DNA from: Natronorubrum aibiense
GTDB taxonomy: Archaea > Halobacteriota > Halobacteria > Halobacteriales > Natrialbaceae
Length of the DNA stretch: 64,000 nt
Assembly: GCF_009392895.1 (NCBI RefSeq)
Contig: NZ_CP045488.1
Coordinates: forward strand, 2,108,001-2,172,000
Direction: 5' to 3'
Shown: in pieces, positions 23,223 to 26,675 of the stretch
How the letters are laid out: each line of letters opens with the position of its first letter
Position numbering within the stretch: position 1 is the first letter of the stretch
The notes under the pieces: model-generated
What the model saw: only the letters and a program-made list of their open reading frames with translations
The model's database searches: none
Told to the model about the DNA's origin: nothing
Translations under genes and position numbers: made by a program

Positions 23223-23594
23223 ATGAGCTATCGGAAGGTCAACTACGAGGAGGTCGAGCAGGTCTCGAGTGCGATGCATTTCCTGAGTGATCCACTCGAG
23301 ACCGAGCAGGTGGGTGTGACGGTAGCACGGTGTGATCCGGGGTGGAACAGCAAGCCACACGACCACACGGACAACGATCACGAGGAGGTCTACGTGCTCA
23401 TCGAAGGCGAAGCAACGGTGGTCGTCGACGACGAACCGGTCGCGATGGAAACCGGAGACGCCCTCTGGCTCCCGCCGGAGTCGACACGTCAGATCCGAAA
23501 CGGCGACGAGGAGAGCGCGTTCGTCCTCGTCAGCGCCCCGAGTATCGGGGACGAGGACGGCGACGAGTGGTTGCTCTCGGGATTCGCTGGCTGA
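23223..23594 (+). CDS. small cupin domain protein
   Basis: 123 aa single-domain cupin. Metal-binding motif 1 is HDHTDNDHEEVYVLIEGEA (His, His, Glu) and motif 2 falls around METGDALWLPPEST, followed by RQIRNGDEESAFVLVSAP. Start at 23223 is supported by a TATA-like TTTTACC about 27 bases upstream (leaderless). Cupins range from dioxygenases and isomerases to sensors, so no specific reaction is assigned. Confidence 0.8.
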   Translation: MSYRKVNYEEVEQVSSAMHFLSDPLETEQVGVTVARCDPGWNSKPHDHTDNDHEEVYVLIEGEATVVVDDEPVAMETGDALWLPPESTRQIRNGDEESAFVLVSAPSIGDEDGDEWLLSGFAG

Positions 23595-23701: not shown

Positions 23702-23723
23702 GTAACACCGGAAGTGGTGGGGT
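23702..23723 (+). repeat. origin recognition box 1 (upstream of orc)
   Basis: Matches the three boxes on the far side of the orc gene: core TAACACCGGAAGTGGTGGGG, compared with TAACAGCGGAAGTAGTGGGG in box 2. It ends in the G string typical of archaeal origin recognition boxes. It lies about 80-100 bases before the orc start codon. Confidence 0.7.
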
Positions 23724-23746
23724 TGCTACTATATAATTCATTGGAT

Positions 23747-23767
23747 ACAGCGGAAGCAGCGGAACCA
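23747..23767 (+). repeat. two overlapping partial origin boxes in the orc leader
   Basis: ACAGCGGAAG followed directly by CAGCGGAACCA; each repeats the central core of the full boxes but lacks the G-rich end. Position just before the orc start suggests a role in autoregulation by Orc protein; this is inference. Confidence 0.5.
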
Positions 23768-23801
23768 AAGGATAAAGCCGTCCGCCGAGACATCCTACAC
23801 A

Positions 23802-24989
23802 ATGTCGGATTTTAGCTTCAAGCCGACTGGGAGCATCTTCAAAGAGCGTGAAGCACTCTTAGAGGAGTGGACACCCGACGAACTGGTCGGCCGGGACGAA
23901 GAACTCAGGCAGTATCATGCGGCACTGCAACCCGTCATCGAAGGTGAGACGCCCTCGAACATCTTTCTGTACGGGAAAAGCGGCGTCGGGAAAACCGCCG
24001 CAACCCGATTTCTCCTCCAACTGCTCGAGCGCGACGCCGGGAAGGTCGATGGGCTCGAACTCCATACGGTCGAAATCAACTGCGACGGTCTCAACTCCAG
24101 TTACCAGACGGCCGTCGCGCTCGTCAACGAACTCCGTGATCCCGCAAATCAGATCTCGAACACCGGCTATCCGCAGGCGTCGGTTTACCAATTCCTGTTC
24201 GACGAACTCGATGCACTCGGTGGCACCGTCCTCATCGTTCTCGACGAGGTCGATCACATTCGTGACGACAGTCTCCTCTACAAACTCCCGCGAGCACGCT
24301 CGAACGGCGACGTAACGGCTGCACGACTTGGCGTAATCGGCATCTCAAACGACCTCGATTTCCGAAATCAGCTCAGCTCGAAAGTCCGCTCGAGTCTCTG
24401 CGAGAAGGAAGTCTCGTTCAGCGCCTACGACGCGACCGAACTCTGTGAAGTGCTCCGCCAGCGTGAGGCAGTCGCGTTCGAAGACGACGTCCTCGACGAC
24501 GGCGTCATCGAGATGTGTGCCGCCTACGGCGCGAAAGATTCCGGTGACGCACGACAGGCACTCGATCTCTTACTCGAGAGTGGCGACATCGCCCGTGAAA
24601 CCAACGCCGAGTTGGTGACGGAAGCCCACGTCCGCGAAGCCAGAGAGCGACTTCAGACCGATCAGGTGGTCGAAGGGATCAGCAACTACTCGATGCACGG
24701 CCAACTCGTCCTGTGGGCGTTGACGATCTTAGAAGAACGGGGGCAGACGCCGGCGCGCACCCGTGACGTCCGTGAGCCATACGAGATGCTGTGTGAACGC
24801 GAGGGGAACGATCCCGTCTCCGACCGTGCGGTGCGTGAGTATCTCGCCGAACTCGAGACACTCGGCATCATCTCTTCGACGCAGGTCAATCGCGGCAAGG
24901 GCGGCGGAAAGTACAAACAACACGAGTTGGATCAGTCGGTCTCGAGCGTGAAAGCCGGACTGTCGGAGCTGTTAGATACCGCTGCGTGA
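23802..24989 (+). CDS. orc: Orc1/Cdc6 family replication initiator
   Basis: 395 aa AAA+ initiator that binds origin recognition boxes and loads the MCM helicase. Motifs: Walker A LYGKSGVGKTAATRF (around residues 53-67), Walker B IVLDEVDHI, sensor 1 GISNDLDF and sensor 2 region GDARQALDLL, followed by a C-terminal winged helix (about 300-395, RAVREYLAELETLGIISS). Length is typical. The gene is bracketed by repeats sharing one consensus and followed by an AT-rich segment, so it is the cognate initiator of the adjacent origin. Haloarchaea carry several orc genes; whether this is the main chromosomal one cannot be told here. Confidence 0.96.
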   Translation: MSDFSFKPTGSIFKEREALLEEWTPDELVGRDEELRQYHAALQPVIEGETPSNIFLYGKSGVGKTAATRFLLQLLERDAGKVDGLELHTVEINCDGLNSSYQTAVALVNELRDPANQISNTGYPQASVYQFLFDELDALGGTVLIVLDEVDHIRDDSLLYKLPRARSNGDVTAARLGVIGISNDLDFRNQLSSKVRSSLCEKEVSFSAYDATELCEVLRQREAVAFEDDVLDDGVIEMCAAYGAKDSGDARQALDLLLESGDIARETNAELVTEAHVREARERLQTDQVVEGISNYSMHGQLVLWALTILEERGQTPARTRDVREPYEMLCEREGNDPVSDRAVREYLAELETLGIISSTQVNRGKGGGKYKQHELDQSVSSVKAGLSELLDTAA

Positions 24990-25111
24990 CCGTCAGTTTT
25001 GATTCTGTTGTGTGTCCTTTCTCTCATGCCTTTGCTGGTTTTCCGAACGTTGACTCTCCCAATTGGCTCGGCTGTTCACTCAATCGACCCCAATTAATCT
25101 GACTACACTCG

Positions 25112-25133
25112 ACCCCACTACTTCCGCTGTTAC
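25112..25133 (-). repeat. origin recognition box 2
   Basis: On the minus strand the core is TAACAGCGGAAGTAGTGGGG. It differs from box 1 at only two positions in 20. Confidence 0.75.
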
Positions 25134-25156
25134 GGGGGACTGTGTGTTACACCCCC

Positions 25157-25178
25157 ACCCCACTGGTTCCGCTGTTAG
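25157..25178 (-). repeat. origin recognition box 3, left arm of the inverted pair
   Basis: Minus strand core TAACAGCGGAACCAGTGGGG with a longer run of G beyond it. Identical to box 4 in opposite orientation; the perfect arm extends over 25154-25178. Confidence 0.85.
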
Positions 25179-25233
25179 TGGCTTCAGGGGCTACCGACCT
25201 CGTTCATCCCGGTCCGGATGCCCGCTCATATCG

Positions 25234-25282
25234 GTCAAGAGAAATAGTATAGAATTAAGTACGATTGCTAAAAACTGTATCC
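25234..25282. other. AT-rich duplex unwinding element candidate
   Basis: The most AT-rich stretch between boxes 3 and 4, lying in an otherwise GC-rich genome; the position is where strand opening would start. Confidence 0.6.
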
Positions 25283-25346
25283 GCAAGCCGTTCATCACTA
25301 TCTACAAATTACCCCCTCCTACGGGGGTGATGCAGTCGTCTCACCG

Positions 25347-25368
25347 CTAACAGCGGAACCAGTGGGGT
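25347..25368 (+). repeat. origin recognition box 4, right arm of the inverted pair
   Basis: Core TAACAGCGGAACCAGTGGGG followed by a G-rich run; exact inverted copy of box 3, identity continuing to 25371. Confidence 0.85.
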
Positions 25369-25493
25369 GGGAGGGGTCCACGACGCTGGACGACTCGAGT
25401 GTGATCAGGTGTTGATTGACGTTCAGTGGCTACTATAGCTCCGTCCTGGTTTCCGTCGGCGGTCGCTCGAGGCTTGCACAGTTGCCCCGCGGC

Positions 25494-25523: not shown

Positions 25524-26675
25524 ATGGAACTACTCGAGGACAGCATCGTCCCGGAACACGCACGCGACATCAAAGCCGAGGCGCGTGAGTTCGCGCGCGA
25601 ACACATCGAACCGAACGCGCAGGAACACTTTCAGGCCGGAACGTACCCCGAAGAGATCCTCGAAGCAGGCCAAAAAGCAAATCTCGTCGCACAGGACATC
25701 CCCGAGGAGTGGGGTGGCCGCGGGCTCGACCTCCCGCAGTTGCTCGCGCTGACGGAGGAGTTCTACCGGGCCGATGCCGGGATCGCACTGACTCTGCAAC
25801 TGGCGAGTTTCGGCTGTGAGATCACTTATAAGTACGGCACCGACGAGCAATGCGAGGAGTACATCCGACCGGTCGCGGAAGGCACACAGCGCTCGGGGCT
25901 CGCCGTATCGGAACCGGAGACGGGAAGTGACCTCGCCGGAATGCAGACCACGGCCGAGAAAGACGGCGACGAGTACGTCTTAAACGGCGAGAAGTACTGG
26001 ATCGGTAACGGTGTCGAAGCCGATTGGGTGACGGTCTACGCCCGGACGGGTGAGGACGAGGACAACCGGTACGGCAACCACTCGATGTTCATCGTCCCCA
26101 CCGACACCGACGGCTACGAGGCCGAACACATCCCCGAGAAGATGGCGATGCGCGCCTCGAAGCAAGCCCACATCGAGTTCGACGACTGCCGGATTCCCGA
26201 ATCGAACCTGATCGGCCACGAGGGAGCCGGCTTCATGATGCTCGCGGAGTTTTTCAACCACGGTCGAATCATCGTCTCCGGCCACAGCCTGGGTCTCGCC
26301 GCGGCCGCCATCGAAGAGACCTGGGCCTTCGTCCACGACCGCGAGGAGTTCGGCCGAACGATCAACGAGTTTCAGGCAGTTCAACACGGCCTTTCGGATA
26401 TGCTCATCGAGTTCGAGCGCGCTCGAGCGCTCACCTGGCGGGCCTGCGAAAAGGTCGAAACCGGTGAGCACGCTGGCTACTGGGCGGCGCTATCGAAGAC
26501 GAACGCGACGGAGGCGGCGACGGCCGTTTCCGAACAGGGGATGCAGTTTCACGGCGGTCGCTCCGTTCTCGACGAGCGTCGGATCGCCCGCGTGTTCCGC
26601 GACGCCCGAATTCCCGTCATCTACGAGGGGGCAAACGAGATTCAGCGCAACCTGATCTACGGGCAAGCGCCGTAA
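25524..26675 (+). CDS. acyl-CoA dehydrogenase
   Basis: 383 aa flavoenzyme introducing the alpha-beta double bond into acyl-CoA, with electrons going to ETF. Landmarks: N-terminal helical domain (1-115), FAD/substrate segment RSGLAVSEPETGSDLAGMQT, KYWIGNGVEADW, HEGAGFMMLAEFFNHGR, and the C-terminal FQAVQHGLSDM followed by EGANEIQRNLIYGQ. The catalytic-base position is read as the Glu in YEGANEIQ. Similar in length and layout to the second copy at 29717 but clearly diverged, suggesting a different acyl chain. Lies immediately beside the origin and is transcribed on its own. Confidence 0.93.
   Translation: MELLEDSIVPEHARDIKAEAREFAREHIEPNAQEHFQAGTYPEEILEAGQKANLVAQDIPEEWGGRGLDLPQLLALTEEFYRADAGIALTLQLASFGCEITYKYGTDEQCEEYIRPVAEGTQRSGLAVSEPETGSDLAGMQTTAEKDGDEYVLNGEKYWIGNGVEADWVTVYARTGEDEDNRYGNHSMFIVPTDTDGYEAEHIPEKMAMRASKQAHIEFDDCRIPESNLIGHEGAGFMMLAEFFNHGRIIVSGHSLGLAAAAIEETWAFVHDREEFGRTINEFQAVQHGLSDMLIEFERARALTWRACEKVETGEHAGYWAALSKTNATEAATAVSEQGMQFHGGRSVLDERRIARVFRDARIPVIYEGANEIQRNLIYGQAP

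Follow-up and report, generated by a model that had tools for sequence, protein, structure and literature searches.

A probable plasmid-derived orc1/cdc6-linked origin module at a syntenic chromosomal site in Natronorubrum

Results

Boxes and overall layout

Analysis of the window, a 64,000-nucleotide stretch of Natronorubrum aibiense DNA (C1:2108001-2172000, inside a 3.35-Mb contig), revealed an orc1/cdc6-linked origin module, and its possession of boxes specific to its own type of Orc is well supported. It is probably a self-contained haloarchaeal initiator-plus-origin unit of plasmid derivation, which would have entered the chromosome once, in the ancestor of a Natronorubrum subgroup, and been lost again in one member.

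A pattern search of the window gave four exact matches to TAACASCGGAANNRGTGGGG, the same four boxes with a shared consensus that an earlier note on this DNA had described. Sites with up to three mismatches are expected by chance 0.05 times, and four boxes were found in none of 100 shuffled sequences. In the whole 4.35-Mb genome, a scan found sites with 0-1 mismatch at these four positions only, so that copies of the box far from any orc gene, which would speak against an origin, do not occur at this level of similarity. The next-best sites (2-3 mismatches) are mainly the boxes of a paralogous orc gene at C1:745 kb. The probability of a chance or low-complexity resemblance is negligible; no point in its favour was found, and it is already refuted by the excess of exact matches over expectation and by the conservation of the boxes in other genera. 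The features of the module and its surroundings are as follows.

23223..23594, plus strand: cupin gene, left neighbour of the insertion site (Pfam)
23703..23722, plus strand: box 1, TAACACCGGAAGTGGTGGGG, promoter box at -99 from the orc start (exact pattern match)
23730..23737, plus strand: presumed TATA element of orc, TATATAAT, at -72 from the orc start (sequence)
23748..23766, plus strand: tandem half-boxes CAGCGGAAG-CAGCGGAAC, at about -54, across the expected transcription start
23802..24989, plus strand: orc1/cdc6 initiator gene, intact, 395 aa (Pfam domains)
25113..25132, minus strand: box 2, extra box between orc and the origin core (exact pattern match)
25158..25177, minus strand: box 3, left inner origin box with extended G-string GTGGGGTGGGGGTGT (exact pattern match)
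25178..25347, unstranded: origin core between the inner boxes, 170 bp; its AT-rich part, 25231-25310, is the presumed unwinding element
25253..25298, plus strand: conserved core motifs AATTAAGTA ... CTAAAAAC ... TCCGCA ... CGTTCATCAC (alignment of cores)
25311..25328, unstranded: G-rich inverted repeat ACCCCCTCCTACGGGGGT, within the inner boxes, in most of 19 aligned cores
25348..25367, plus strand: box 4, right inner origin box with G-string GTGGGGTGGGAGGGG (exact pattern match)
25524..26675, plus strand: acyl-CoA dehydrogenase gene, right neighbour of the insertion site (Pfam)

Boxes 3 and 4 form an inverted repeat of 28 nt (25154-25181 and 25344-25371) in which 27 of 28 positions pair (96% complementary), its perfect part being the 25 nt at 25154-25178 and 25347-25371. 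The perfect 25-base inverted pair bracketing an AT-rich core that the note had reported was thus recovered, as was the intact orc gene beside the boxes. Both inner boxes carry G-string extensions, GTGGGGTGGG, which supplies the minimum of two inverted ORBs with G-strings that such an origin requires. Treatment of all four boxes as a single origin array was also considered and then abandoned: box 1 is part of the orc promoter, while boxes 2-4 lie downstream of the gene.

The orc gene and its promoter

An Orc1/Cdc6 initiator should exceed 300 aa and possess AAA+ and winged-helix domains. The 395-residue product has the Pfam domains AAA, Cdc6_lid (E=1e-24) and Cdc6_C, a winged helix (E=3e-23), together with Walker A (GKSGVGKT) and Walker B (IVLDEVD) motifs. 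The closest solved structures by sequence in the PDB are those of Sulfolobus Orc1-1 (2qby_A) and the Aeropyrum initiator (2v1u_A), with E values of about 1e-62. Among three Natronorubrum species that carry the module, dN/dS for orc is about 0.02, compared with about 0.07 for a neighbouring gene in the same species pairs. Such values indicate strong purifying selection on the gene in these carriers, from which we conclude that the module does something useful in them.

Upstream of orc, the layout of the promoter is fixed. In 24 of 26 related loci the box starts between -97 and -101, a TATA-like element lies at -70 to -75 in all 24 loci with an Orc of at least 73% identity, and a tandem half-box pair, CANCGGAARCANCGGAAN, is kept in 26 of 26 loci at -52 to -62. 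This constant arrangement (box at about -99, TATA at about -72, half-boxes at about -54) suggests autoregulation by Orc, and it follows the DnaA-like logic of placing initiator boxes at the initiator's own promoter. The half-boxes are the presumed autoregulatory operator. On the Halosimplex pelagicum chromosome (L152 2744-2925), a 32-bp tandem array of six boxes directly precedes the orthologous orc gene and looks like box amplification at the promoter.

Fixed promoter distances of box 1 and the half-boxes would also be seen if the boxes were operators for a regulator of orc or of its neighbours with no role in replication. We regard this as very improbable, since the downstream pair, with its 175-201 bp spacing around a conserved AT-rich core, has no gene start between its boxes. 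Moreover, the pair travels with orc to other sites and replicons, its sequence tracks the identity of the Orc, and the G-strings typical of haloarchaeal ORBs would be left unexplained.

The origin core

The likely origin, at 25158-25367, lies downstream of orc. Origins require an AT-rich unwinding region between the ORBs; here, AT content reaches 65% over the 80 bp of 25231-25310 while averaging 37% in the surrounding 380 kb, and only 0.15% of 80-bp windows are as AT-rich. Alignment of 13 downstream cores and six upstream ones, the latter reverse-complemented, revealed a conserved asymmetric order of AATTAAGTA, AAAAAC, TCCGCA or TCCGTA, and GTTCATCAC, with the G-rich inverted repeat at the far end. 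The repeat, which is degenerate in a few of the 19 cores, resembles the oriC1 enhancer of Haloarcula hispanica (PMC3936714) and by analogy may have a similar role here.

In orthologous loci, the origin part consists of one to five minus-strand boxes and then a single plus-strand box 175-201 bp past the last of them. The inner two boxes usually have an extended G-string, and in most orthologues one to four additional minus-strand boxes occupy the position of box 2. An inverted pair with this spacing is present in 14 of the 15 genomes, our own included, that carry an Orc of at least 83% identity; the exception, G083, has the orthologue without a close inverted pair.

Relatives in Haloarcula (Orc about 80-82% identical) have the inverted pair upstream of orc, with one to three plain boxes left downstream. 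The Haloarcula core matches the Natrialbaceae core in reverse complement: averaged over 13 x 6 comparisons (Natrialbaceae x Haloarcula), the local alignment score is 69 for the reverse complement, 22 for the forward orientation and 18 for shuffled sequences. Whichever side of orc the core occupies, its AAGTA end is the one nearer the gene, and the G-rich repeat is at the far end. Because the Haloarcula core is upstream while plain boxes stay downstream, the core moves independently of the 3' boxes.

These comparisons bear on whether the downstream cluster is mainly a site for titration of Orc, with the true origin upstream or elsewhere. There is a precedent in oriC2D of H. hispanica, an ORB-rich region of 11 boxes downstream of cdc6E that has no origin activity (PMC3936714), and the boxes here are downstream too. 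However, oriC2D lacks an origin layout, whereas two of the three boxes downstream of the present orc form an inverted pair enclosing a conserved AT-rich core. That pair, its core and the G-rich repeat are all on this side, the upstream side having only the promoter box and half-boxes, and in Haloarcula it is the homologous core that is upstream, with plain boxes alone remaining downstream. Titration as the main role is therefore unlikely, although box 2 alone could act in this way and may be a site that soaks up spare Orc.

Taking the downstream region as the origin, we infer a mechanism in which Orc would bind the inverted boxes 3 and 4 around the core downstream of its gene, the DNA would open at the AT-rich core, and MCM helicase would be loaded, so that replication would proceed in both directions when the origin fires in the cell. 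Through the box at -99 and the tandem half-boxes on the promoter, Orc would restrain its own production, and any surplus may be titrated by the extra box 2.

Co-divergence of boxes and initiators

Orthologues of the window Orc with at least 83% identity occur in 14 other genomes of the 125 in the family, and in all 15, our own included, boxes lie beside orc. Among the other 110 family genomes, 19 have any box at one mismatch or fewer, in several cases beside broken or more distant orc genes. We scanned 43 loci for the type of box. CGGAA boxes only were found at 29 of 29 loci with an Orc at least 63% identical to that of the window; where the Orc is 54-58% identical, 13 of 14 loci have CGGAC boxes only and one has both types. 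As lineages are non-independent and some genomes enter twice, these counts describe a clean split and not a probability. CGGAA versus CGGAC thus tracks the type of Orc, as required of a box specific to the adjacent Orc family.

The note had further proposed that the boxes are recognised by the adjacent Orc. The co-divergence favours this, as does published genetics on other members of the family: the origins of H. hispanica need their own adjacent cdc6 gene (PMC3936714), which by analogy makes recognition of the boxes by the window Orc likely. At 52 Orc positions the A (CGGAA) and B (CGGAC) families show consistent differences, and the wing residues R364E, K366R, K370T and K372R are, from the sequences, attractive candidates for determinants of specificity.

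About 14 relatives of Orc are encoded in the genome. The nearest paralogue, at C1:745 kb, is about 55% identical and is flanked by GAACAGCGGACAWRGTGGKG-type boxes. Boxes at other chromosomal orc genes are ATACAGCGGAAACGTGGGG (604 kb), ATACGTCGGAAACRTGGGG (1855 kb), TTTCACTCTGAACGAGGGGTG (2483 kb), TTACATCGGCACTCCGGGGTG (31 kb) and TTACAAACGCGAGGGGGGTG (3016 kb). With at least six other chromosomal orc genes having box sets of their own, the general statement of the note, that haloarchaea have several orc-adjacent origins each with its own box variant, holds for this genome, and the window is one of at least seven candidate origins on the chromosome. Many orc-linked origins per genome have been reported in other haloarchaea (PMC3528665). 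For the oriC1 candidates of the genome, PDB scores gave no separation; the locus at C1:3016 kb, with a 57-nt inverted repeat and its TTACAAACGCGAGGGGGGTG boxes, would fit the ancestral oriC1. The module of the nearest paralogue, module B (L034, C1 ~741.4-747.5 kb), has boxes on both sides of its orc gene; another inverted pair lies about 4 kb past that gene, near 741.4 kb.

Tentatively, we propose that the core of about 180 bp is a directional, separable element that can be moved and inverted while keeping its polarity towards orc; that together with orc it makes up a minimal, removable plasmid-origin cassette of 1.8 kb; and that the change from CGGAA to CGGAC separates two paralogous initiator systems in one cell.

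Insertion site and history

The cupin and acyl-CoA dehydrogenase genes on either side of the module are neighbours in 10 of 10 Natronorubrum genomes. The gap between them is 1933, 1784 and 2051 bp in the three carriers; in the seven non-carriers it is 110-139 bp (three genomes) or 681-793 bp (four). The promoter sequence common to the congeners' acyl-CoA dehydrogenase gene begins at about 25471. Boxes, spacing and core are intact in all three carriers, and inspection of the junctions by eye recognised no target-site duplication, integrase or transposase. The four congeners with the 681-793 bp gap (L123, L124, L126, L127) have an unrelated small ORF there, membrane-protein-like by eye.

A tree of four genes has the form ((G108,G101),(own,G106)), with support of 0.97-1.0. 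The 139-bp gap of G101 was considered as the pre-insertion site and rejected; G101 groups with the carrier G108 and is better explained by secondary loss. In view of this tree, the most economical history is a single gain before the group followed by a single loss in G101, although separate lineages may alternatively have gained the module by recombination. The divergence of orc between carriers is about that of the neighbouring gene and therefore fits vertical descent since insertion.

In finished Natrialbaceae genomes, the orthologues are on plasmids: on plasmid 2 of Natronococcus occultus, where the orthologous orc adjoins a ParA gene, and on four others. This points to transfer from plasmid to chromosome. 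In Halosimplex pelagicum the orthologous orc is on the chromosome, and a search of viral contigs gave no relatives of the window Orc. On the N. occultus plasmid (L175 100-969, 4942-6159), ParA is divergent from the orthologous orc, and with a second orc and an SMC-related gene nearby the region is a plasmid replication and partition cluster.

Some loci have lost part of the module. Broken orc orthologues (matches of 110-185 residues) stand beside intact boxes at L133 6203-7118, L135 5674-6297 and L138 6523-7334, which are apparently origins caught in decay. At L134 6530-6896 (G073 C1:210.5-210.9 kb) there are five boxes of the window type, including an inverted pair spaced by 193 bp, together with a homologous core, in a genome without an orc of the window family; the nearest orc gene, 2.5 kb off, encodes a protein 46% like a different Orc of our own genome. 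This locus may be a relic, or else an orphan origin that depends on a different Orc.

Activity of the origin

The note had called the locus an active or potential origin. Its classification as an origin module stands, and it may be active. GC skew, which the note had suggested computing around 25 kb, shows no switch at the locus over 380 kb: among 280 split points, the change here ranks 200th. In addition, at least six other orc genes on the chromosome have box sets. Since the genome has many origins, the missing skew signal is weak evidence either way; it is expected if the origin is dormant, recent or one of many. We found no published replication test for a member of the window-Orc family, the nearest tested relative being oriP-cdc6K of pHH400.

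There is accordingly a realistic possibility, somewhat short of an even one, that this is a dormant or relic origin, correctly built and unused while other orc-linked origins do the work. Such an origin would share everything with the module we describe except firing. The skew result and the many other box sets are consistent with it, as are the decayed relatives with truncated orc genes and the loss of the module in one close relative; moreover, Haloferax mediterranei has documented dormant origins that can be activated (PMC4595724). Certain relatives retain box arrays but have no intact orc of the window type, so boxes can outlive function. Against dormancy, a useless module should decay, and here orc evolves under tighter constraint than its neighbour while boxes, spacing and core persist in the three carriers; yet selection could also keep a reserve or conditional origin.

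Discussion

The kind of origin described here is already known, as almost the same box was printed in 2012: Wu et al. list the near-identical TAACAGCGGAAACAGTGGGGTGGGGGGGT as an ORB-like element (PMC3528665). Three features were not found in the main texts of the related papers, whose supplementary files may record them: a cassette-like module inserted cleanly between syntenic genes, a directional core that has changed sides, and a promoter operator at fixed spacing. The gain and loss of origins in archaea is an open question, and the published cases consulted lie in variable regions with transposases. With a clean syntenic site and both carriers and non-carriers in one genus, the gain, use and loss of an extra origin become directly testable. 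Two paralogous Orc/box pairs that differ little in their boxes and share one genome likewise offer a simple system for finding the residues that determine initiator specificity.

Among known systems, origin II of Halorubrum lacusprofundi (Hla_3512) and Haloquadratum walsbyi (HQ2959A) has the same box core, a G-string and an orc/cdc6 neighbour (PMC3528665). In the origin II systems two unlike origins share one orc, whereas the window has one box type per orc, with the origin boxes downstream and a promoter box upstream. The haloarchaeal oriC1 (PMC3936714) resembles the window in its inverted G-string ORBs enclosing a G-rich inverted repeat. The window differs in its box, its Orc and its variable location, and its G-rich repeat, a short hairpin, lies at one end of the core. 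Furthermore, oriC1 should be present at a syntenic place in every haloarchaeon, whereas the full-length Orc at 83% identity or above is found in 15 of 125 family genomes and the module is absent from seven Natronorubrum congeners. Compared by layout, oriC2-cdc6E and oriC2D of H. hispanica (PMC3936714) have boxes on both sides of cdc6, as in the window, where it is the downstream side that has the layout of an origin.

The oriP-cdc6K origin of H. hispanica pHH400 is experimentally essential (PMC3936714), and its initiator is about 57% identical to the Haloarcula member of the window-Orc family. As in the window, inverted G-string boxes surround an AT-rich region and tandem half-boxes lie near the orc start; unlike the window, it has CGGACA boxes instead of CGGAAnn, and its origin is upstream. 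Given these boxes, oriP-cdc6K belongs to the sister (B) family, the family represented in the present genome by the paralogue at C1:745 kb.
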